From Nonomuraea rhodomycinica (lineage in GTDB: Bacteria; Actinomycetota; Actinomycetes; Streptosporangiales; Streptosporangiaceae): DNA of 64,000 nt. Below the pieces are notes generated by a model, which was not told the origin of the DNA, did not search any database, and was given only the letters and a program-made list of their open reading frames with translations. Location: contig NZ_JABWGO010000001.1 in NCBI RefSeq assembly GCF_013363995.1, forward strand, positions 744,001 through 808,000, written 5' to 3'. The position numbers and the translations under genes were made by a program. Shown one piece after another: positions 49,999-59,618 of the stretch (positions are counted from its first letter, which is position 1; each line of letters starts with the position of its first letter).

Positions 49999-50029
49999 GC
50001 CTCCCCGCCGGGGAGCCGGGAGACCCGGC

Positions 50030-50340
50030 GCAAGATGATCAATCATCCGATTTCACGTCATTCATCGAACGCGAATATGAATTGCGTTCACGTTCGACTC
50101 GGAGAGCATGGGGCGCCCTCTCGATCGAAGCGTACATAACATCAACACCGCCTCGCGCACGTACTCGTGAATCAAGCTCGGATCAATTTTCTCCCAGGAT
50201 CGTACTGGTCCCGACCCGCTTCGCCGTCCAACAACGCGCGCACCGAATTAAAGAAACGCGGCGATTATCCGCTTTCAAGAAAAAGGCGGTTTGCGCAATA
50301 CCAACACCGCTTCTATCGGGAAATTTCCGGTTTCAGGCGC
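50030..50340. other. Lower-GC intergenic island without a recognised gene
   Basis: This roughly 300-bp part is visibly A/T-richer than the rest of the window (for example runs AATATGAATTGCG, GAATTAAAGAAACG and AAGAAAAAGG). An open frame of 85 codons (50167-50424, +) has ordinary composition, no clear RBS and no recognised motif. The stretch probably contains the promoter of the minus-strand peptide and may be of foreign origin. Confidence 0.5.
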
Positions 50341-50376
50341 GGCTGGCGGGGCAGGCAGCAGGGAGCCACAGGTTTC

Positions 50377-50434
50377 ACGACACTGTGTCGTCATCCTCTT
50401 GACGAGACGGCCGCAGGTTTGTGACACTGTGTCA
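50377..50434. promoter_or_regulatory. Two related palindromes upstream of heme oxygenase
   Basis: ACGACAC-T-GTGTCGT (50377-50391) and TGACAC-T-GTGTCA (50422-50434) share the core GACACTGTGTC. Their centres are 44 bp apart, about four helical turns, and both follow a GTTT. The nearer one ends 29 bp before the GTG start. They look like paired sites for a TetR-type repressor, possibly the one encoded at 51178. Confidence 0.65.
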
Positions 50435-50463
50435 TGAAACACTGGTACACGGTGGGGTGAAGT

Positions 50464-51111
50464 GTGACGTCGTTCTCCGAAGCGCTGAGGAACGCCACGT
50501 GGGGAGACCACGAGGCGGCCGAGGGCGAGAGCTATCTCAAGGAGCTCATGGGCGGGCGGCTGAGCGCCGCCGAGTACGGCGAGATGGTCGCGCAGCACCA
50601 CTTCGCGTACGCGGCTCTCGACGGCGTGTCCCGCGAGCTGGCGGACCACCCGGTGGCGGGCAGGTTCGTGTTCCCCGAGCTGTACCGCGAACCGGCGCTG
50701 GAACGCGACCTCGCCACCATCTACGGCGACGGATGGCGCGACCGGATCGCCCCGTCCAAGGCGACCCGCACCCTCGTGGCCCGGATCGAGCAGATGGCCG
50801 GCTGGCCCGGCGGGTACGTCGCCCACCACTACACCCGCTACATGGGCGACCTGTCGGGCGGGCAGTTCATCCGGATGGAGCTCCAGCGCATCTACGGGTA
50901 CGCGAAGGGCGGCGGGGTCGACTTCTACCTGTTCGACCAGGTGGGCAGCCTGCCGAGGTTCAAGCGGGAGTACCGGTCGCGGCTGGACGCCTTCGGGGAG
51001 ACCCTCGACGAGCGGGAGCGGGAGCGCGTCATCCGTGAGGTGAAGCTGGCCTACCAGCTCAACACCGAGGTCCTGGCCGAGCTCCTCGACGCCGTCCGCG
51101 CGGTCGCCTGA
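50464..51111 (+). CDS. Biliverdin-producing heme oxygenase
   Basis: This 215-residue helical enzyme opens heme to biliverdin, CO and iron. It has the proximal heme His in LRNATWGDHEAAEG (residue about 17) and the distal-helix motif TRYMGDLSGGQFIRM (about 130-145), with VDFYLFDQVGSLPRFKREYR near the C-terminal helix. It likely serves iron acquisition or heme detoxification. GTG start with GGGGTGAA upstream. Two palindromes precede it, and a TetR gene follows 66 bp downstream. Confidence 0.94.
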   Translation: MTSFSEALRNATWGDHEAAEGESYLKELMGGRLSAAEYGEMVAQHHFAYAALDGVSRELADHPVAGRFVFPELYREPALERDLATIYGDGWRDRIAPSKATRTLVARIEQMAGWPGGYVAHHYTRYMGDLSGGQFIRMELQRIYGYAKGGGVDFYLFDQVGSLPRFKREYRSRLDAFGETLDERERERVIREVKLAYQLNTEVLAELLDAVRAVA

Positions 51112-51165
51112 CGGCGGCACGTCTCCGGCCGTACGTTCGCCCCTTCCCGTGGCGTACGCGCGGCC

Positions 51166-51171
51166 TACGAT
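51166..51171 (+). promoter_or_regulatory. -10-like TACGAT
   Basis: It ends 6 nt before ATG 51178, consistent with a leaderless message for the TetR gene. Confidence 0.5.
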
Positions 51172-51177
51172 GGCCCT

Positions 51178-51783
51178 ATGCCCCGGATCTCCGCCGCCAC
51201 CATCGGTGAGCACCGCGCCCGCACGCGCGAGCGCATCCTCCAGGCGGTCTCACGACTGTCGCGTGAGCAGGGCATCGACGCGCTCTCGATGACGGACGTG
51301 GCGCACGAGGCGGGCATCACCCGGACCGCGCTCTACAACTACTATCCCGACAAGGCGGCGCTGCTGCTCGCCTTCACCGAGCAGGTCACCGGCTACTTCA
51401 TCGAGAGCTACGAACGCGAACTGGCCGACGGGGCCACCCCGGCGGAACGGCTGCGCGCGTACGTGCGGCTCCAGCTCGCCGGCCTCGTCGCCCACCCGCA
51501 CCCCGGCCCCGCCGACCTCGGCGCCGCCCTCGGCCCGGACGCCTACCAGCGGCTGGCCGAGCACGTGGCGCCGATGCAGCGGATCCTCACGGAGATCTTG
51601 GAGAGCGGCGCCGCGTCGGGCGAGTTCGAGGTGCCGGACGTGACGGCGACGGCGCGCATGGTGCTCGCGGTGATCGGCGCGGAGCGGGTGCCCCTGGTGA
51701 GCGGGGCGATCACCGTGGACAGGGCCACCGAGCTGGTGTCGGACTTCGTCCTGCGCGCACTCGGCAGCCGCCCTCCGCGCTGA
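51178..51783 (+). CDS. TetR family transcriptional regulator
   Basis: This 201-residue protein has the helix-turn-helix in residues about 10-60: RTRERILQAVSRLSREQGID, MTDVAHEAGITRTALYNYYP and DKAALLLAFTEQVTGYF. The C-terminal ligand domain is ordinary in length. It lies just downstream of heme oxygenase on the same strand, with its own probable promoter. It is the best candidate to bind the GACACTGTGTC palindromes upstream of that gene, perhaps sensing heme or an iron-related ligand (inference). Confidence 0.92.
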   Translation: MPRISAATIGEHRARTRERILQAVSRLSREQGIDALSMTDVAHEAGITRTALYNYYPDKAALLLAFTEQVTGYFIESYERELADGATPAERLRAYVRLQLAGLVAHPHPGPADLGAALGPDAYQRLAEHVAPMQRILTEILESGAASGEFEVPDVTATARMVLAVIGAERVPLVSGAITVDRATELVSDFVLRALGSRPPR

Positions 51784-51923
51784 CCGCCGCCCGCTCCGGA
51801 CGGCCGTTTCGCACGGACCGCACGGTCCTAGAGCTCCCCGAAGGCGGTCGGAGGCGGGTCCGGCGCCTGATCGGGACCGGGGCCCGGAGCCGGACGGGGC
51901 AGGGTCGGGGGGCGTGGGCGGGC

Positions 51924-52901
51924 TCAGGGCGCGGTCCGCTGCCGGGAGGGGGCGGAGTCCCGCGGCCGGTGCGGCCAGCCCGCGGGGATGCGTTCCAGGA
52001 CTCCGCCCGCGAAGGTGTCGTACAGACCGAGCGGCTCCAGGTGCACGTAGCCGATGTGGCAGTCGCACACCGCCAGCGGGCAGGGGCGCGGGCGGAGCGC
52101 CGCCAGCGCCGTTCCGTCGTACAGGTTGCCGAGGCGTCCCCGCACGAAGTGGCAGCGCCGCACGTCGCCCTCCCCGTCCACGGAGATCACGCTCTCTCCG
52201 GTACGGCACGGCAGTCCGAGGCTGGGATGCGGGTCGCGGCTCACGGCGAAGAGGGGGTCCAGCGCGGCCCAGTCGGCCGCCTCCTCGTCGGTGTAGAGGC
52301 GGCCTTCGGCGGCGTTCACCCACAGGTAGACGCCGCCGGGCAGGTCGGCGCGCAGGCGGCGGGCGGCGTCGAGGTGCTCCGGGAGGCCGACCACGCCCAC
52401 GCTGTACCGCACCCCCCTGCCGGACAAGTCATGACATTTCTGGATGAAGCGGTCGTGGGACACCTGGCCCGGGTGGTAGGTGGCCCACAGGGCGAGCGTG
52501 TCGAGGTCCGCCTGGTCGAGCCAGTCCGTCCGGCCACTGAGGTTCGTCTGGATGGCGACCCGGGGCACGTGGGCGAGACGGCTGAGCCGCAGCATGGCGC
52601 GCCGGTACCACGACCGCACGAGACCCTCGCCCCACGGGGTGAACAGCACGGAGACGCTGAAATCCTGCTCCGACACCCACCGGACGAACCGCTCCAGCGC
52701 CGCCCGGTCGACCCGCAGCTGCTCGGGTGTGTCGCGTCGCTTGGCGAACGGGCAGTAGGGGCAGTCGTAGTCGCAGCTCGCGAGGGGGCCTCGGTAGAGG
52801 ATCGTCAAACGCGCGGGCCCGGCGGCGGAGGACTGCTCGTGCGGGCCGCCGGCTGGACGGTGCGGGAGGCGGTCAGCGGTGGTCAGGTCAGCGGTGGTCA
52901 T
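51924..52901 (-). CDS. STM4011-family radical SAM protein
   Basis: This 325-residue protein has ILYRGPLASCDYDCPYCPFA with the CxxxCxxC cluster motif (about residue 43), and VRWVSEQDFSVSVLFTPWGE, RVAIQTNLSGRTDWL and ISVDGEGDVRRCHFVRG along the barrel. The later cysteines (RPCPLAVCDCHIGYVHLEPL) suggest a second metal site, but this is a guess. The gene name comes from Salmonella STM4011. The reaction is unknown. ATG 52901 overlaps the upstream STM4012-type gene by 14 bp, and it is the last gene of the operon. Confidence 0.88.
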   Translation of the reverse strand: MTTADLTTADRLPHRPAGGPHEQSSAAGPARLTILYRGPLASCDYDCPYCPFAKRRDTPEQLRVDRAALERFVRWVSEQDFSVSVLFTPWGEGLVRSWYRRAMLRLSRLAHVPRVAIQTNLSGRTDWLDQADLDTLALWATYHPGQVSHDRFIQKCHDLSGRGVRYSVGVVGLPEHLDAARRLRADLPGGVYLWVNAAEGRLYTDEEAADWAALDPLFAVSRDPHPSLGLPCRTGESVISVDGEGDVRRCHFVRGRLGNLYDGTALAALRPRPCPLAVCDCHIGYVHLEPLGLYDTFAGGVLERIPAGWPHRPRDSAPSRQRTAP

Positions 52902-54279
52902 AGGTGTCCATCAACTCCCGGACGCGGGCGGAGAACAGCGCGGGCCCGACGGCGTCGGAGTGGGCGAGCCCTTCGGCGGTGAGCCGGACGCGCTCGGCGT
53001 CGTGGTCGAGCCAGCCGCGCTCCGCGTAGCCCTCCAGGTCGAAGTCGTCCAGCACGTCGGTGCCGAAACGTTCCGCGTAGGCGGCGCGGTCGAGGCCAGC
53101 CGCCTGCAGGAGCGACTGGAGCAGGTGCCTGCGGCGGCGTTCGGCGGCGTCGAGCGCGAAGCCGGCGTTGGCGCGGGCGAACTCCTCGCGCGGCAGCCGC
53201 ACGTAGTCGTCGATGATCGCGCGGACGTGGCGGACGGCCACGGCGTACTCGAACGAGTAGTGCAGCCGCTCGGTGTAGGAACGGGCGCCGCAGCCGAGCC
53301 CGACCATCCCGTCGCGCTGACATCTGTACTCCTCCCCCGGCGACGCGCCGTGCGAGCCCCCCGGTGAAGCGCCGTGCGAGCCCTCCAGCGAGGAGCCGTG
53401 CGAGCCCTCCGGCGAGGAGCCGTACGGGCTTCCCGGCGCGGGGGAGGTGGCCGCGCGGCGGCGGAACATGCGCATCGACACCTGCTCGTAGCCCGCCCCC
53501 AGCAGGTGGTCGCGGCCCGCCCGGTACAGGCGCAGCCGCTGGTCGTCCCACGCGCCCGGCCGCAGCCCGAGCCCGGTGAGCGGCCGCACGTACAGGGGGT
53601 ACAGGTACATCTCCTCCGGCCGCCACGCCAGCGCCGCGTCGAGCGAGTACAGCCAGGACTCCTCCGTCTGGCCGTCGATGCCGTAGATCAGGTCGAGGTT
53701 GAGTACGGGCGGCCCGGCCGCCCTGATGGCGGCGAGCGCGGCCTCGACCTCGGCGCGCCGCTGCGGGCGCACCGCGGCCCGCGCCTCGGCGTCGAGGAAG
53801 CTCTGCACGCCGATCGAGACGCGGGTGACGCCCCTCTCGGCGAGGACGGCCAGCCGGTCGGGCGTCGCGGTGGCGGGCGAGGTCTCCACGCCGAACGGGA
53901 CGGCCCGCAGATCGGCCCCCATGACGTCCTCGGCGATGTCGAGGAGCCTGGCCAGCTCTCCCGCCTCCAGGTAGGTGGGTGTCCCGCCGCCGATCGCCGC
54001 CGCCGCGAACCGGGCCTCGGGGAGCGCCTCGCGGGTCACGGCCGCCTGGCGGCCGAGCGCGTCGAGGTAGGCCGCCACCAGGGAGGCGGGCGCGCCGGTG
54101 CGGGTGAACAGGTTGCAGAACCCGCACCGCATCTCGCAGAACGGCACGTGCAGGTACAGGAAGAGCGCCTGGTCCGGCTCCCGCGCCCACACCTCGCGCA
54201 ACGCGGGCCGCGGCTCCAGCGGCCGGTAGGCGGTCTTGTGCGGGTAGGAGTAGACGTATCCCTGGTAGGGCGAGGTCAC
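52888..54279 (-). CDS. STM4012-family radical SAM protein (HemN/HemW-like)
   Basis: This 463-residue protein has the start VYSYPHKTAYRPLEPRPALR, the cluster motif LHVPFCEMRCGFCNLFTR (CxxxCxxC, about residue 50) and IGGGTPTYLEAGELARLL. VSIGVQSFLDAEARAAVRPQ and LDLIYGIDGQTEESW match the HemN-like radical SAM barrel. It has a clear in-frame insert of four 8-residue Gly/Ser-rich repeats near residues 280-313. The start is GTG 54279, overlapping the hydrolase stop by GTGA. It is similar in fold to coproporphyrinogen oxidase but the family is distinct and unassigned. Confidence 0.88.
   Translation of the reverse strand: MTSPYQGYVYSYPHKTAYRPLEPRPALREVWAREPDQALFLYLHVPFCEMRCGFCNLFTRTGAPASLVAAYLDALGRQAAVTREALPEARFAAAAIGGGTPTYLEAGELARLLDIAEDVMGADLRAVPFGVETSPATATPDRLAVLAERGVTRVSIGVQSFLDAEARAAVRPQRRAEVEAALAAIRAAGPPVLNLDLIYGIDGQTEESWLYSLDAALAWRPEEMYLYPLYVRPLTGLGLRPGAWDDQRLRLYRAGRDHLLGAGYEQVSMRMFRRRAATSPAPGSPYGSSPEGSHGSSLEGSHGASPGGSHGASPGEEYRCQRDGMVGLGCGARSYTERLHYSFEYAVAVRHVRAIIDDYVRLPREEFARANAGFALDAAERRRRHLLQSLLQAAGLDRAAYAERFGTDVLDDFDLEGYAERGWLDHDAERVRLTAEGLAHSDAVGPALFSARVRELMDTYDHR
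53342..53437 (-). repeat. In-frame 24-bp tandem repeat inside the STM4012-type gene
   Basis: Four copies begin at 53342, 53366, 53390 and 53414 (24-bp period). They encode SHGASPGE-like octapeptides, which lengthen a loop without breaking the frame. Confidence 0.85.
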
Positions 54280-55181
54280 CGCCAGGATCCCTTCTCGAGG
54301 ACGAATTCGCCGTAGGGGACGGTCCACACGACCTCGTGGCCGATGCGGTGGCCGGTGTGCCCGTCCTCCCCGTACGCGGTGCCGTGGTCGGAGCAGACGA
54401 TGGCCAGGCACGGCCGCCGCTCGCTCATCAGGGCGAACAGCCTCGCGATGTGCCGGTCGACGTAGCGCAGGGCGGCGGCGTGCGTGGCCGGGTCGTCGCC
54501 GGTGGCGCCCGGCAGGTGGAACCAGTTGGGCTGGTGCAGCGCCGAGACGTTGACGAACAGGAACACGGGCCCGGCGGCCCTCCTGACGGCGGTCTCGGCC
54601 CGGTCGAGCTGCCGTTCGAAGGAGTCGGGCGCGGTCACGCCGAACCCCGGCTCCCAGTGCGACTCGGCGAACAGCGCCGGCAGCGCCGAGCCGAGCGGGG
54701 TGAGCTTGTTGAAGAAGCCCACGCCGCCGACGCAGATCGTGTGGTAGCCCGCCCGGGCGAGACCGCTGGGCAGGTCGGCGGCGTCGAAGCGCCAGGTGCC
54801 GGGCGCGGTGGTCTCGCTGCCGGGGAAGGCGGCGGCGAACAGCCTCGGGTGCGGGCCGGGGGTGACCGGCGTGGGCAGGAATCCGGCCAGCATCGCGGCG
54901 TGGGCGGCGTAGGTGAAGCTGCCGGGCGTGTGCCGGCGTTCCCACCGGCCGCCGGGCAGCACCCGGGCCAGGGTGGGCAGCCGGCCCGCGGCCAGCTCCC
55001 CGGCGGCGACGTCGTACCGCAACGTGTCGAGCGTGACCAGCAGCAGGTCGTGCGTGCCGATCACCGCGTGCATGTCCCTCATGGGCGTCCCGCTTCCGGA
55101 CCCTTCCCTCGCGGTCGGCACCGCGCCGGCGCGGTCCTCACGGCTGCTCCCCGTGGAGCCCTCCCCGCGTGTGCCGGTCAT
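54276..55181 (-). CDS. STM4013/SEN3800-family hydrolase (sulfatase/alkaline phosphatase fold)
   Basis: About 301 residues from ATG 55181, which overlaps the upstream stop as ATGA. A shorter start at 55085 or 55076 would remove a Gly/Ser/Arg-rich extension that looks non-conserved. The core begins THDLLLVTLDTLRYDVAAGE, with metal-binding Asp. It continues TPGSFTYAAHAAMLAGFLPT, a likely Ser/Thr nucleophile region, and ends LAIVCSDHGTAYGEDGHTGH with Asp/His ligands. This is the order of alkaline-phosphatase-superfamily phosphodiesterases/sulfatases. No signal peptide is seen, so it acts in the cytoplasm. Confidence 0.85.
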   Translation of the reverse strand: MTGTRGEGSTGSSREDRAGAVPTAREGSGSGTPMRDMHAVIGTHDLLLVTLDTLRYDVAAGELAAGRLPTLARVLPGGRWERRHTPGSFTYAAHAAMLAGFLPTPVTPGPHPRLFAAAFPGSETTAPGTWRFDAADLPSGLARAGYHTICVGGVGFFNKLTPLGSALPALFAESHWEPGFGVTAPDSFERQLDRAETAVRRAAGPVFLFVNVSALHQPNWFHLPGATGDDPATHAAALRYVDRHIARLFALMSERRPCLAIVCSDHGTAYGEDGHTGHRIGHEVVWTVPYGEFVLEKGSWR

Positions 55182-56317
55182 CGACGGCCCGCCGTCGGTA
55201 CGGACCCCAGGAGCAGCTCCACCTGCGCCTCGTACGTGTCCAGGCCCTCGGCGCCGCCGCCGGGCAGCCCGGTCAGGCCCGGCAGCAGGTCGCCGAACGC
55301 GTTGACTTCGGCCACCGCCGGCTCCCACCGGCCGGCCCCCACCATGAGGTCCACGCCGACGGCCGGGCTCCCGGGGAAGCAGGCGGCGGCCCGGGAGCAG
55401 ACGTCCATGGCCCGCGCCCATGCGGGCTCCCCCAGGGCGGCGCGGACCGCGGCGAGGTCTCCCCGCCGGCCTCCGAGGTGGAGGTTGGTCATGGGGGCGT
55501 GGCTGGTGCGCGCGACCGCGTGGGTGGGCCGGCCGCCGATCACCACCACCCGCAGGTCGAACACGCGCCCGCCGACGGACGCCTTGGGGAACCAGCGCTC
55601 GACGTGCAGCCCGTCGGGCGCCAGGGCGCCGACGATCGCCGCGACGTCCGCCTCCCGCTCGTACGAGCGCACCCGCAGGGAGTTGTGCAGCGTGCCCGCG
55701 GGCCCCCGCTCCACGGACGTGGTGGCCTTGATCCGCGGACCGCGCGCCTGCAACGCCACCACACCCGAGGCGGACGAGCCGTGGGCCGGTTTGACGAACA
55801 CCCGGGCCCAGCCCGCCGCGCGCATCGCGGCCCGCAGCCCCGGGTAGCCGGTGATCGGGCCCGGCAGGGCGGGCGGGACCGGCACGCCGGCCGCCGCGAG
55901 CCGGGCGTGGCACAGCCGCTTGTCGAACATCACCGCGATCTCCCCGACGTCGCCCGCCAGGCGCGCTCCGGGGGTGCGGTCCACCGCGTCCCGGACCGCC
56001 TCCAGCGCGCGGACGAAGCGGGTGTGCCAGGTGGCGCCGCCGCCGACGCGGGTCGGGTCGCCGGGGCCGCGCAGCAGCGCGTCGGCCGCCGCGTCCTCGC
56101 CCGGCGACTCGACCCGGACCAGCGCCCCCTCGGGGAGGCCGGGGAGGCGCGGCGCCCAGGCGTTCTCCACGTCATCCCCGCCGAGCACGTCGCGCCAGGC
56201 GACCACGTGCGGCTCCGGCAGACCCCGGCGGCGCAGCGCGGCGGCGAACAGGGTGACCCGCCGGTCGCCCGGCGTGCCGACGACGGCGACCGGCGGCGCC
56301 ACCGGGGCCCGGGTCAC
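55178..56317 (-). CDS. STM4014-family ATP-grasp-like protein
   Basis: This 379-residue protein starts at GTG 56317, overlapping the LRR-type gene stop as GTGA. ARVFVKPAHGSSASGVVALQ is an ATP-grasp nucleotide-binding segment (about residues 165-185). PDGLHVERWFPKASVGGRVFDLRVVVIGG and VGVDLMVGAGRWEPAVAEVNAFGDLLPGL carry the metal-binding Glu/Asn at the end, in two blocks. The first 130 residues are a distinct N-terminal domain. The family is expected to join a carboxylate to an amine or thiol at the expense of ATP; the substrate is unknown. Confidence 0.85.
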   Translation of the reverse strand: MTRAPVAPPVAVVGTPGDRRVTLFAAALRRRGLPEPHVVAWRDVLGGDDVENAWAPRLPGLPEGALVRVESPGEDAAADALLRGPGDPTRVGGGATWHTRFVRALEAVRDAVDRTPGARLAGDVGEIAVMFDKRLCHARLAAAGVPVPPALPGPITGYPGLRAAMRAAGWARVFVKPAHGSSASGVVALQARGPRIKATTSVERGPAGTLHNSLRVRSYEREADVAAIVGALAPDGLHVERWFPKASVGGRVFDLRVVVIGGRPTHAVARTSHAPMTNLHLGGRRGDLAAVRAALGEPAWARAMDVCSRAAACFPGSPAVGVDLMVGAGRWEPAVAEVNAFGDLLPGLTGLPGGGAEGLDTYEAQVELLLGSVPTAGRR

Positions 56318-57246
56318 TCCGACACCGCGACGTAGCGCCACTTCTTGCCGGCATCCTGGCGGCCGGACAGGTCGAGCTCCACCCCGGGCAGCGCGGCGCG
56401 CAGCCGCTGCGTCATCGCCTCGCTCAGGTAGTGGTGGCTCAGGTCGAGGCTCCTCAGGTGGGTCAGCGGCCGGCCGGACAGCAGCGCCTCGGCCCCGGTG
56501 TCGGTCAGGACGCCCATCGACAGGTTCAGGGACTCCAGGCGGGCGACCACCGGGGCGGCGGCCACGGCGGCGCACACCTCGTCCTGGATATCGCTGTCCT
56601 GCAGGCCGAGGTGGCGCAGGGCGGGCAGGCCGGAGCCGTCGAGGATGCCCGTCCAGTCGGCGGGCCGGGAGTCGCCGGAGTAGTCCTCGCTGCCGAGCCA
56701 GAGCTCCAGGTGCCGCAGCGCGGGGAAGGAGCTCTCGCCGACGGCGCGCGCCACCGACGCGGGCAGGCCGCCGGTCTCGAACCTGAGCACCTCCAGCGCG
56801 TCGTGGGTGACGGGCCGCAGGCGCAGCCCGGTGCCGCCGCGCACCTCCAGCCGGCGCAGGCGCGGGTAGGCGTCGAGCAGCGGCGTGACGTCGTCCTGCT
56901 CGATCCAGGAGATCTCGGACTCCTCCGCGACGATGTCGCCGAGGAAGATCGCCTCCAGCGCCGGCAGCCGGTCGGCCGCCTCGGCGAGCATCCGGATCGG
57001 GATGTCGCCGCGCGCGCCGTCCCAGCCGGGGCCCCACCAGCCGATGACCAGCGCCCGGATGCGCGTGGGCTCGACCCTGGCGAGCAGTTCCTCGAACCGC
57101 TGCTGGAGCGTCGGCTCGTCCTCTGCGTAGGGGGCCTGCACGCGCCAGGCCACGGTGTCGGGGGCGGCCGACGACGTCGCCGGGTCGAGGCCGACCCAGC
57201 GGACCGGCAGGCCGTGGAAGGTGTCGAGGTGGGCGTGGATGGTCAT
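56314..57246 (-). CDS. STM4015-family leucine-rich-repeat-like protein
   Basis: This 310-residue first gene of the operon starts at ATG 57246 with GGAGA upstream. The N-terminal part (DTFHGLPVRWVGLDPATSS) is followed from about residue 70 by repeats such as LRRLEVRGGTGLRL, ALRHLELWLGSEDYSG, ALRHLGLQDSDIQDE, RLESLNLSMGVLTDTG and HLRSLDLSHHYLSEAM, i.e. LRR modules. No signal peptide is seen. It may bind protein or peptide partners for the four downstream enzymes. It overlaps the next gene by GTGA. Confidence 0.88.
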   Translation of the reverse strand: MTIHAHLDTFHGLPVRWVGLDPATSSAAPDTVAWRVQAPYAEDEPTLQQRFEELLARVEPTRIRALVIGWWGPGWDGARGDIPIRMLAEAADRLPALEAIFLGDIVAEESEISWIEQDDVTPLLDAYPRLRRLEVRGGTGLRLRPVTHDALEVLRFETGGLPASVARAVGESSFPALRHLELWLGSEDYSGDSRPADWTGILDGSGLPALRHLGLQDSDIQDEVCAAVAAAPVVARLESLNLSMGVLTDTGAEALLSGRPLTHLRSLDLSHHYLSEAMTQRLRAALPGVELDLSGRQDAGKKWRYVAVSE

Positions 57247-57292
57247 CGGGTCTCCAGGTAGGGGGAGATCAAGGTCTACCAGAGAGCGGTGA

Positions 57293-57298
57293 CAGGAT
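57293..57298 (+). promoter_or_regulatory. -10-like CAGGAT for the MFS gene
   Basis: It ends 6 nt before ATG 57305, fitting nAnnnT and a leaderless start. No RBS is seen. Confidence 0.4.
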
Positions 57299-57304
57299 GG
57301 GCGC

Positions 57305-58702
57305 ATGGAGAACGGCCACATCAGCCTCGGCAGCGCCCGGGGGCGGTGGATCCTCGCGGCCACCGTTCTCGGCTCCGGCCTGACGATGCTCGACAGCACG
57401 ATCGTCAACGTCGCCCTGCCCTTCCTGGGCAAGGAGCTGGACGCGGGCATGTCCGGCCTGCAGTGGACGGTCAACGCGTACACGCTGACGCTGGCGGGGC
57501 TCATCCTGCTGGGCGGGTCGCTGGGCGACCGGTACGGCCGGCGCAAGGTGTTCCTCATCGGCACGGTGTGGTTCGCGGTCGCCTCCGCGATGTGCGGGCT
57601 GGCGCCCGACGTCGGTTTCCTGGTGGCGGCGCGGGCGTTGCAGGGCGTGGGCGGGGCGCTGCTCACCCCGGGGTCGCTGGCGATCATCCAGGCGTCGTTC
57701 GAGAAGGCCGACCGGCCGCGCGCCGTGGGCGCCTGGTCGGGGCTGGGCGGGGTGGCCGCCGCCGTGGGACCGCTGCTCGGCGGCTGGCTGGTGGAGTGGG
57801 CGGGCTGGCGCTGGGCGTTCCTGCTCAACCTGCCGTTCGCGGCGCTGGTGGTGCTGGTCGCCGTCCGGCACGTGCCCGAGAGCCGGGACGAGCAGGCCGC
57901 CGGCCGTTTCGACGTGCTGGGCGCGGCGCTCGCGGCGCTGGCGCTGGCCGGGATCACGTACGGGCTGATCGACCTGAGCGCGCCCGTGCCGCTGATCGTG
58001 GGCGTGGCGCTGAGCGTGGCGTTCGTGCTGGTCGAACGGCGGCGCTCGCCGGACGCGCTGGTGCCCGTGGGGATCTTCCGCGACCGGGTGTTCACGGCGG
58101 TGAACGTGGTGACGCTGATCATGTACGCGGCGATGGGCGTGGTGTTCTTCCTGCTGGTGGTGCAGCTCCAGGTGGTGTCCGGGTTCAAGCCGGTCGCGGC
58201 GGGCCTGGCCCTGCTGCCGACGACGGTGCTGATGCTGGTGCTCTCGCCCGCGGCCGGTGAGGTGGCCAAGCGGTACGGGCCGCGCCTGCCGATGACGCTG
58301 GGCATCGTCGTGGCGGGACTGGGCTTCCTGTGGATGAGCACGATCTCCACCGGCGCGTCGTACGCGCTCCAGGTGCTGCCCGCGGTGGCGGTCTTCGGCC
58401 TCGGCCTGTCGGCGGCGGTGGCGCCGCTGACGGCGACCGTGCTGGCCACCGCCGAGGAGCGGTACGCGGGCACGGCCAGCGGCGTCAACAACGCGGTGGC
58501 CCGTACCGGCAGCCTGCTCGCGGTGGCCGCCGTGCCGCCCCTGGTGGGCCTGGTCGGCGACGCGTTCGAGCGGCCGGCGGTGTTCGACGCGGGTTTCCGG
58601 GCCGCGATGGTGGTCAGCGCGGTGATGATGTTCGTCTCAGCGGCCATCACGTTCCTGGCGATCAGGACGAACGTGCTCGCCGCGGAACGAGCCGACCGCT
58701 GA
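57305..58702 (+). CDS. MFS transporter, DHA2 (EmrB/QacA) type
   Basis: This 465-residue exporter has about 14 helices. It has LTMLDSTIVNVALPFLGKEL, WTVNAYTLTLAGLILLGGSL, motif A GDRYGRRKVFLIG and motif C-like GPLLGGWLVEWAGWRWAFLL. It likely exports a drug or metabolite by proton antiport. It is divergent to the STM4015-type gene and shares a 58-bp spacer, with no direct evidence that it belongs to that system. The start is ATG 57305. Confidence 0.94.
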   Translation: MENGHISLGSARGRWILAATVLGSGLTMLDSTIVNVALPFLGKELDAGMSGLQWTVNAYTLTLAGLILLGGSLGDRYGRRKVFLIGTVWFAVASAMCGLAPDVGFLVAARALQGVGGALLTPGSLAIIQASFEKADRPRAVGAWSGLGGVAAAVGPLLGGWLVEWAGWRWAFLLNLPFAALVVLVAVRHVPESRDEQAAGRFDVLGAALAALALAGITYGLIDLSAPVPLIVGVALSVAFVLVERRRSPDALVPVGIFRDRVFTAVNVVTLIMYAAMGVVFFLLVVQLQVVSGFKPVAAGLALLPTTVLMLVLSPAAGEVAKRYGPRLPMTLGIVVAGLGFLWMSTISTGASYALQVLPAVAVFGLGLSAAVAPLTATVLATAEERYAGTASGVNNAVARTGSLLAVAAVPPLVGLVGDAFERPAVFDAGFRAAMVVSAVMMFVSAAITFLAIRTNVLAAERADR

Positions 58703-58739
58703 GTCACGGCTCCCGCGGGCTCCGGCGCCCGCCCGCGCG

Positions 58740-59618
58740 TCAGCGGGCCAGGACGGCGGGCCTGAGCACCTCCTGGCACCACTGGCGGAAGCCGGTGGGC
58801 GCGGGTGCGGCCAGGGCCTTCCGCTCGGCGTCGTAGATGCCGTCGTCCTGTGCGGCGGCCATGTCCACCAGGCCCTGCGCCCATGCCTCGCTCATGCCGT
58901 ACCGCAGCATCGTCTCCTTGTAGGTCCGTGCGTCGAGCTGCTGGAAGGGGACCGGGCGCTCCAGCACCTCGGACATGACCTGCGCCATGTCGTCGGGGGA
59001 CAGCGTGTCGCCGATCACCGGGACGGTCTCCTGCCCGCTCCAGGAGTCGTCGCTCAGCAGGGCGGCGGCGGTGGCGGCGATGTCGCGGGTGGCGACGGTC
59101 GCCAGCGGGCGGTCCGCCGCGTTGGCCAGCGCGAACGTGCCCCGCGTCCTGACCGCCTCCGCCTGGGCGAGCAGGTTCTCCATGAAGAACGGCATGGCCA
59201 GGGCCCGATAGCCGACCCCGGAGCTCTCGATCAGGTCGTCCATCGCGAACGCCGGCGACAGCAGCCCGGCGTGCTTGCCGTAGGCGCGGCCCAGGCTGGT
59301 GACGCCGACGACGCGCGTGACGCCGTGCGCCTTGAAGGCGTCGCAGGCCGGGCGGGTGAAGTCGAGGTAGTGGCCCTCGGGGTCCGCCGTGCGGGGGTTC
59401 GGCGGGACCAGCCACAGGACGGCGTCGGCGCCCTGGAACGCCTCGGCGAGGACCGCGGGGTCCCGGTGCGAGCCCCGCACGACCTCCACCTGCTCGCGTG
59501 TCCCCGGCGCCAGGCGGGCCGGCTCGCGGGCGATCACCCGCGCCGGCCGGCCGGCCGTGAGCAGGGCGTCGAGGACCTGGCGGCCGATCCGGCCGGTGGG
59601 AGCGGTGACGACGATCAA
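58740..59618 (-). CDS. NmrA-fold NAD(P)H-binding protein
   Basis: About 292 residues from TTG 59618, chosen because AGGAGG sits 5 nt upstream; a longer ATG start (59678) lies within the operator region. The Rossmann motif IVVTAPTGRIGRQVLDALLT starts at residue 2, and TRVVGVTSLGRAY and YRALAMPFFMENLLAQ follow. This matches QOR2/NmrA-like NAD(P)H-binding proteins. It is divergent to a TetR gene with three operator copies between, so it is probably induced by that regulator's ligand. Confidence 0.88.
   Translation of the reverse strand: MIVVTAPTGRIGRQVLDALLTAGRPARVIAREPARLAPGTREQVEVVRGSHRDPAVLAEAFQGADAVLWLVPPNPRTADPEGHYLDFTRPACDAFKAHGVTRVVGVTSLGRAYGKHAGLLSPAFAMDDLIESSGVGYRALAMPFFMENLLAQAEAVRTRGTFALANAADRPLATVATRDIAATAAALLSDDSWSGQETVPVIGDTLSPDDMAQVMSEVLERPVPFQQLDARTYKETMLRYGMSEAWAQGLVDMAAAQDDGIYDAERKALAAPAPTGFRQWCQEVLRPAVLAR

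Follow-up and report, generated by a model that had tools for sequence, protein, structure and literature searches.

Here we describe a five-gene operon in a 64,000-nucleotide stretch of DNA of Nonomuraea rhodomycinica (assembly GCF_013363995.1, contig NZ_JABWGO010000001.1, positions 744,001 to 808,000; genome size 9.6 Mb), which is called the window below. Five successive open reading frames (ORFs) run on the minus strand from position 57246 down to 51924 in the order STM4015-STM4014-STM4013-STM4012-STM4011. The first of them encodes a leucine-rich repeat (LRR) protein that ends, past a variable linker, in a conserved short tail with a C-terminal Glu.

The five-gene operon and its distribution

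The genes and the two parts of STM4015 that matter for the argument lie as follows.

56314-57246, minus strand: STM4015-family LRR protein (310 aa), NF038076 361.7 bits (cut-off 275), C-terminus ...WRYVAVSE
56317-56334, minus strand: STM4015 tail codons Y-V-A-V-S-E (residues 305-310), Glu last in 199 of 210 distinct ORFs
56341-56376, minus strand: STM4015 variable linker (residues 291-302), 3.1 bits at positions -9 to -20
55178-56317, minus strand: STM4014-family ATP-grasp ligase (379 aa) with RimK/LysX-like fold, NF038074 415 bits (cut-off 175)
54276-55181, minus strand: STM4013-family hydrolase of the alkaline-phosphatase superfamily, NF038075 408 bits (cut-off 250)
52888-54279, minus strand: STM4012-family HemN-like radical S-adenosylmethionine (SAM) protein (463 aa), NF006067 627 bits (cut-off 380)
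53334-53438, minus strand: 24-bp x 4.4 tandem repeat within STM4012, a Gly/Ser/His-rich insertion absent from six aligned relatives
51924-52901, minus strand: STM4011-family radical SAM protein with a SPASM-like C-terminal cysteine set, NF038073 399 bits (cut-off 200)

Coordinates and order agree with an initial annotation made from the sequence alone. The overlaps given there between neighbouring genes (GTGA, ATGA, GTGA and 14 bp, in this order) all read as described, with a caution for the second: the homology of STM4013 to its relatives starts near an internal ATG at 55082, and therefore the ATGA overlap at 55181 is possible, not certain. A GGAG precedes the ATG of STM4015. Family calls were made by the curated NCBIfam cut-offs, which all five proteins exceed by far; thus the assignment to the STM4011-STM4015 families holds, as does the distinction of two different radical SAM proteins (NF006067 for STM4012, NF038073 for STM4011). 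The Pfam labels were weak or unspecific: radical SAM, HemN C-terminal domain, Sulfatase, ATP-grasp and LRR. An Rfam scan of 50000-59000 returned zero matches, a promoter and terminator scan of 50400-57700 found none, and PADLOC returned for the operon one weak match, PDC-M51A (E 3.5e-4), by STM4012.

The families had been noted as lacking a known function, and the open-licence literature, with preprints and subscription papers outside scope, gave none for STM4011-STM4015. Likewise, open-licence literature on the neighbouring family DUF6745, on the solved STM4015 homologue 2RA8, on RimK with radical SAM and on LRR with radical SAM or ribosomally synthesized and post-translationally modified peptides (RiPPs) held nothing on the operon. 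Tables of three studies include STM4013.S (sigma54 binding), STM4010 as a putative hydrolase (colonisation under cefotaxime) and STM4015 (positive selection); the available passages of these studies give no function.

The STM4011-STM4015 families are annotated in actinomycetes, Salmonella, some E. coli, Deinococcus, Paenibacillus and Methylobacterium, and the gene order is identical in Streptomyces, Methylobacterium, Deinococcus, Paenibacillus, Salmonella and E. coli LF82. With the STM4013 profile we gathered 80 loci, all from Actinomycetota; they are the best 80 among 561 confirmed stretches. In 75 of them the complete set of five genes could be detected. Among the five incomplete loci, L069 is interrupted by a contig end, and genome searches located the missing genes elsewhere in the same genome for the others: STM4014 for L036 and L060, STM4015 for L078, and STM4011, STM4014 and STM4015 for L038, where the end of an STM4012 frame is visible beside them. 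In the three genomes whose locus is devoid of STM4014 the displaced gene adjoins a full or truncated STM4015.

Within the window's genus (54 genomes) STM4013 and STM4015 each score above the cut-off in 28 genomes. STM4015 is present in 27 of the 28 STM4013-bearing genomes, the exception (G053) having its operon at a contig edge, and in one (G006) of the 26 genomes without STM4013. An even sample of the phylum showed STM4015 to be rare, with 6 of 296 genomes including the window's own. A 3.8-kb Salmonella operon stretch was matched at 60-80% identity by 154 of 5,426 complete E. coli genomes, 153 of which cover at least 80% of its length; phage records gave 3 matches, all from Salmonella or Escherichia. 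On a Bacteroides finegoldii plasmid (L019:8935-9316) fragments of 82 and 68 aa are left of STM4013 and STM4012, and STM4015, STM4014 and a fusion of STM4011 with a haloacid dehalogenase (HAD) phosphatase are still open. A dedicated gene set had been proposed, and the set is indeed co-conserved in several phyla. Taken together, the five genes form a real, scattered and uncharacterised pathway.

The C-terminal tail of STM4015

The tail of STM4015 typically reads [YF]-[VI]-x-[VIL]-[SATG]-Glu-COOH. In the surveyed loci 221 STM4015 ORFs were matched, 210 of them distinct by their last 120 residues; the ORF surveys leave out loci L001-L012 (3.8 kb each), and weak matches below the cut-off in G017, G020, G029, G038 and G044 were treated as general LRR proteins and left out. 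Glu is the C-terminal residue in 199 of the 210 distinct ORFs and a strict tail expression fits 194, after 153 of 155 in a first set. The terminal Glu is one of 11 invariant columns in an alignment of 105 sequences. Because the last six residues of 153 sequences average 0.97 bits and the linker before them 3.1 bits (positions -9 to -20), the conservation of the tail is, as judged from the alignments, unlike that of a domain end. The last six residues of STM4014, STM4013 and STM4011 are variable with 3.0-3.4 bits; STM4012 has 1.9.

Loci carry one to six tailed STM4015 copies per single enzyme set. Among copies of the same locus (50 pairs, 105 aligned sequences) the bodies are 59% identical, the linkers 14% and the tails 76%; the values for all 5,460 pairs are 54%, 17% and 70%. 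The window's tail RYVAVSE has counterparts in Streptomyces (RYVAVGE), Methylobacterium (RSIAVSE), Deinococcus (RYVALGE, RFVALGE), Paenibacillus (RYPSLTE), Bacteroides (YYPMITE) and a Calothrix relative (RYCSVAE). A looser form is found in Salmonella (YMNAMYTE) and E. coli LF82 (YMNPMFTE). The STM4015 proteins read first came from six genera (five phyla) besides the window, and the same or the looser tail was seen in examples from six phyla; these cross-phylum tails are single examples, and phyla other than Actinomycetota were sampled unevenly.

We considered whether overlap with the start of the next gene is the main cause of tail conservation and rejected it. An RTGA overlap cannot explain the tail because its codons vary synonymously (terminal Glu is GAG in 129 and GAA in 65 cases) and because 31 of the 199 Glu-ending copies stop with TAA or TAG, which is incompatible with such an overlap; the STM4015 genes of Salmonella, E. 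coli LF82 and Paenibacillus do not overlap STM4014 at all. A degenerate tail-plus-stop pattern matched once in the window (0.01 expected) and five times in the whole genome (reversed control 1). Only the STM4015 match has a true stop; the other genome matches arise because the last codon of the pattern also admits TGG.

Scoring 34,273 ORFs from the fetched loci for the tail gave a bimodal distribution, with 209 ORFs at 8 or above and 7 between 4 and 8. Twelve high scorers were listed because a text filter had recognised no LRR signature close to their end. Four of these are true STM4015 proteins (L015, L048, L083, L148), six are short or frame-shifted ORFs near the operon (L034, L042, L045, L155, L157, L141) and two are probable chance ORFs (L148, L112). 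Of the 11 STM4015 ORFs without terminal Glu, two seem to be pieces of a split frame (L083) and five are decayed fragments or pseudogenes (L118, L119, L120 with two, L124); three are orphans with Asp at the end, and the last is a tandem copy with Arg there. The Asp-ending orphans form a subfamily with tails such as YFPAITD and YLPAIID (L115, L116 and L117, from G006, G041 and G050 of the window's genus). In the same genus none of the three STM4015-like genes read from genomes without STM4013 (G006, G047 and a fragment in G043) ends in Glu, a small number of cases.

Some ORFs retain the tail and little else. At L155:1451-1498 a 15-aa ORF, MSVHRDPHFYVAVPE, with GGAGAG before its ATG, ends in HFYVAVPE where STM4014 begins; it occupies the STM4015 slot, and the same genome has a full STM4015 on a different contig. 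A 41-aa ORF in L157 carries little beyond the tail, two STM4015 copies in L045 (identical in sequence to L129) have internal deletions, and C-terminal parts of STM4015 remain in L172 and L143. As proof of a peptide precursor these LRR-less ORFs are weakened, since several of them immediately precede STM4014 or the next STM4015. We gave them little weight, because this position allows for translational coupling as the explanation.

They nevertheless bear on a RiPP- or cofactor-like reading, in which the tail would be a core peptide whose Tyr, Val or Glu is crosslinked or cleaved by the radical SAM enzymes before the tail or a fragment is excised. Pyrroloquinoline quinone (PQQ) and mycofactocin are analogues for an excised peptide part processed by radical SAM enzymes. 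Two such enzymes in the set, tandem STM4015 copies with conserved end and variable linker, and the very short tail ORFs in a few loci (15 aa in L155, 41 aa in L157) would fit. Yet the set comprises no peptidase, the large conserved fold of STM4015 is unlike usual leaders, and position -6 is Phe in 26 of 153 sequences, which makes a Tyr-derived quinone unlikely. We regard this reading as quite improbable.

The enzymes and the neighbouring genes

The structure model of STM4014 has a mean confidence (pLDDT) of 91.5. Its top structural match is ArgX-LysW (3vpb; Z 23.5, 274 residues, 2.9 A), followed by RimK (Z 23.0, 282 residues, 3.6 A) and LysX (Z 22.8, 273 residues, 3.0 A), three scores that count as ties by the rule of the tool. 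Lower matches are GshB (21.7), an inositol-pyrophosphate kinase (21.1) and Ddl (21.0). The first Foldseek rows are DcsG, ArgX and PsnB, and links to the Protein Data Bank (PDB) by sequence alone are weak (best E 0.001). K133, K176, R256, D323, E337 and N339 are invariant in 63 sequences and would occupy the usual ATP-grasp positions. Thus the suggestion that STM4014 could ligate gains support from a predicted ATP-grasp ligase fold.

In STM4013 the residues D19, T57, D209, D232-H233 and H249, invariant in 7 sequences, would suit a role as metal ligands and Thr nucleophile. In profile comparison with the PDB, STM4013 came closest to nucleotide pyrophosphatase/phosphodiesterases, with sulfatases next. 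The Thr motif was found in 76 of 80 sequences and the sulfatase motif C/S-x-P-x-R in none, so that STM4013 looks like a Thr-nucleophile enzyme of the alkaline-phosphatase superfamily, not a formylglycine sulfatase. Of the "sulfatase-fold" label in the initial annotation the superfamily stands (Pfam Sulfatase 34.7 bits, cut-off 25), while the sulfatase active-site motif is missing from all 80 relatives; a formylglycine sulfatase with STM4011 as its maturase was rejected on the same count. Paralogues of STM4013 with about 47% identity occur outside the operon on two plasmids. In Kitasatospora (L149:3768-7187, plasmid NZ_CP109408.1) the neighbours are genes for a MoaA-like radical SAM protein, a thymidylate-kinase-like protein, a 165-aa protein and a NUDIX protein; in S. 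albidoflavus (L017:7693-9856) a NUDIX gene adjoins and a lasso B2 gene is nearby. They possibly belong to a separate nucleotide-related pathway.

The CxxxCxxC cysteines of STM4012 (C48, C52 and C55) are invariant in 7 sequences. Among PDB sequences HemN (1olt) and NocN (9p2u) alone were found at E of 0.001 or below, and STM4012 is probably an enzyme that uses two SAM molecules. STM4011 has C43, C47 and C50 as well as C-terminal C232, C250, C274, C279 and C281 invariant in 8 sequences. The Pfam SPASM profile gave 18.3 bits with a Bacteroides homologue, below the cut-off of 21.5, and does not list the window's protein; a PDB sequence search with STM4011 returned no relative at E of 1 or below.

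The neighbourhood of the operon was surveyed for the extra partners that the initial annotation had proposed to look for. Recurrent partners exist; none is universal. A gene pair encoding a DUF6745 protein and a protein of about 98 aa adjoins the operon in 70 of the best 80 of 561 loci, and also (about 98-108 aa) in L013-L015, the small protein having the motif RQGDV... TGHxH ... HEEH. DUF6745 ends in YxPxx[EQ][TSA] in 92 of 96 distinct ORFs. An HAD phosphatase adjoins the operon in Salmonella and E. coli LF82, and is the one fused to STM4011 on the Bacteroides plasmid. No constant transporter or regulator was seen in the annotated neighbourhoods of relatives that were read. In the window STM4015 has as its divergent neighbour a DHA2-type efflux gene of the major facilitator superfamily (57305-58702; NCBIfam 237.8 bits, cut-off 230.2). 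Downstream, the operon converges with a TetR-like gene (51178-51783; every match below cut-off). Neither gene is constant among the annotated relatives that were read. A plus-strand ORF (50464-51111) without NCBIfam match adjoins the TetR-like gene, and we take it to resemble heme oxygenase.

The DUF6745 pair offers candidates for the scheme proposed initially, in which the LRR protein presents a different protein or peptide to the enzymes. Its presence beside most of the 80 operons and the DUF6745 tail speak for such a role of DUF6745 or its small neighbour. On the other hand, DUF6745 was not found in the window's genome or in the Salmonella, Paenibacillus and Bacteroides records, and the annotation of E. 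coli LF82 shows none next to the operon. Furthermore, 5 of the 8 DUF6745 genomes in the 296-genome sample have no STM4015; one of the five, G081, keeps the full DUF6745 tail and G153 part of it, which also weakened DUF6745 as a second substrate. We consider a presenter of other substrates very doubtful. The initial interpretation is thus supported in part, and the role given to the LRR protein changes: the conserved tail points to STM4015 itself as likely substrate or carrier, more than a presenter of another peptide alone.

A candidate tail-modification pathway and known systems

Because the last residues of STM4015 are conserved and one of the enzymes resembles ligases that act on protein ends, we favor the view, with a probability of roughly 45%, that the operon encodes a protein-tail modification pathway that builds onto the end of the LRR protein. 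From the genes, their linkage, the tail with its constraint and the predicted ligase fold we infer the modification, its steps, their order and a product as follows. The folded STM4015 would be the genetically encoded substrate or carrier, and its C-terminal tail the place where the enzymes act. STM4014 would activate the carboxylate of the terminal Glu and join it to an amine-bearing group. The HemN-like STM4012 and the SPASM-like STM4011 would then change the attached group or tail residues. STM4013 may remove a phosphate or phosphodiester or aid product release, with the HAD phosphatase joining in some Gram-negatives. The place of the separated STM4014 genes beside STM4015 copies and the Glu chemistry of NosN (below) also speak for this view. 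A broader claim is more tentative and we hold it with less confidence: a new carrier class, in which the C-terminal Glu of an LRR protein is loaded by an ATP-grasp enzyme and elaborated by radical SAM enzymes, with up to six carriers per enzyme set and in at least five phyla.

The main rival is a structural or self-docking role. The tail would be a structural cap or a plug docked onto its own protein, STM4015 would be an adaptor or sensor, and the enzymes would make a small molecule unrelated to the tail. In the AlphaFold model of STM4015 (mean pLDDT 95.6) the last ten residues have about 90. The best PDB match, 2RA8 (Z 32.1, 281 residues, 2.5 A), is a WGR-LRR protein of Bacteroides fragilis and a solved homologue that terminates in YPMITE; it is titled uncharacterised, and open-licence literature on its code and accession gave no paper. 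Because the tail confidence is near 90 and the 2RA8 alignment reaches the last model residue, the tail may be a folded structural element. The basic LRR residue R136 is, like the terminal Glu, invariant in 105 sequences, homologues from other phyla have Arg or Lys at this position (read by eye), and the two residues could pair. A cap, however, needs no exact protein end, and Glu is last in 199 of 210 ORFs; moreover, the tail persists in some ORFs that miss much or most of the LRR, although these may be relics. A structural role appears unlikely to us, if less so than the RiPP-like reading.

Several observations weigh against a tail modification. The alignment with 2RA8 covers model residues 8-310 including the last one, although this range alone is no proof of residue-by-residue equivalence, and the unmodified tail is probably ordered according to the model. 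One tandem STM4015 copy (L128) ends in Arg, the orphan of G006 keeps a similar Asp-ending tail in a genome without STM4013, and the tail is also present in the Calothrix relative, around which the 9 kb read show no annotated operon gene. Translational coupling may be what maintains the small tail-only ORFs in front of STM4014. Conserved ends are also seen in DUF6745 (1.35 bits) and in the protein of about 98 aa (0.66 bits); there the preceding residues are likewise conserved (0.97 and 0.59 bits), as in a domain. The ligase fold of STM4014 is common to many small-molecule ligases and leaves the substrate unfixed, because GshB and Ddl are within about 2-2.5 Z of RimK and LysX. No modified STM4015, product, activity or experiment was found in the open-licence literature. 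The differences from LysW and LysX given below belong on the same side.

What the proposal adds is a likely substrate with exact residues, which makes the pathway testable. If true, it would amount to carrier-protein or tail-modification chemistry on an LRR scaffold, which we did not find described in the open-licence literature.

Among known systems, PQQ, mycofactocin and FxSxx-COOH have a SPASM-type radical SAM enzyme that works on an encoded peptide or protein close to its C-terminus. They differ from the STM4015 system in their short precursors, the lack of an LRR body and another tail. The graspetide ligase PsnB and the D-cycloserine synthetase DcsG are among the top Foldseek matches of STM4014, but they act on a short precursor peptide or on a small molecule. 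The class C methylases NosN and NocN are comparable in that NocN and HemN are the solved proteins closest to STM4012 in sequence. NocN holds two SAM molecules, and the homologous NosN forms a side ring, a lactone, on the Glu side chain of a peptide (PMC13266988). Their context is that of thiopeptides, and the similarity to STM4012 is low. RimK adds glutamates onto the C-terminus of RpsF (PMC10092738). The likeness lies in the RimK-type ATP-grasp fold of STM4014 and in the modification of a protein C-terminus, while the partner in the operon is an LRR protein instead of S6 (RpsF).

Finally, LysX-type ligases join the C-terminal Glu of LysW to an amino group and have GSWGR as a recognition motif (PMC10433800). 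LysW/ArgW with LysX/ArgX thus resemble the operon in pairing a protein with a functional C-terminal Glu with an ATP-grasp ligase that is the best fold match of STM4014. The carrier end EDWGE and the zinc-type CxxC of LysW occur in 0 of 105 STM4015 sequences and GSWGR in 0 of 63 STM4014 sequences, and on these grounds membership in the LysW/LysX system was rejected. That system has enzymes of amino-acid biosynthesis, whereas the operon has radical SAM enzymes and a phosphohydrolase. Common to both is an ATP-grasp ligase encoded together with a protein that has a conserved C-terminal Glu.

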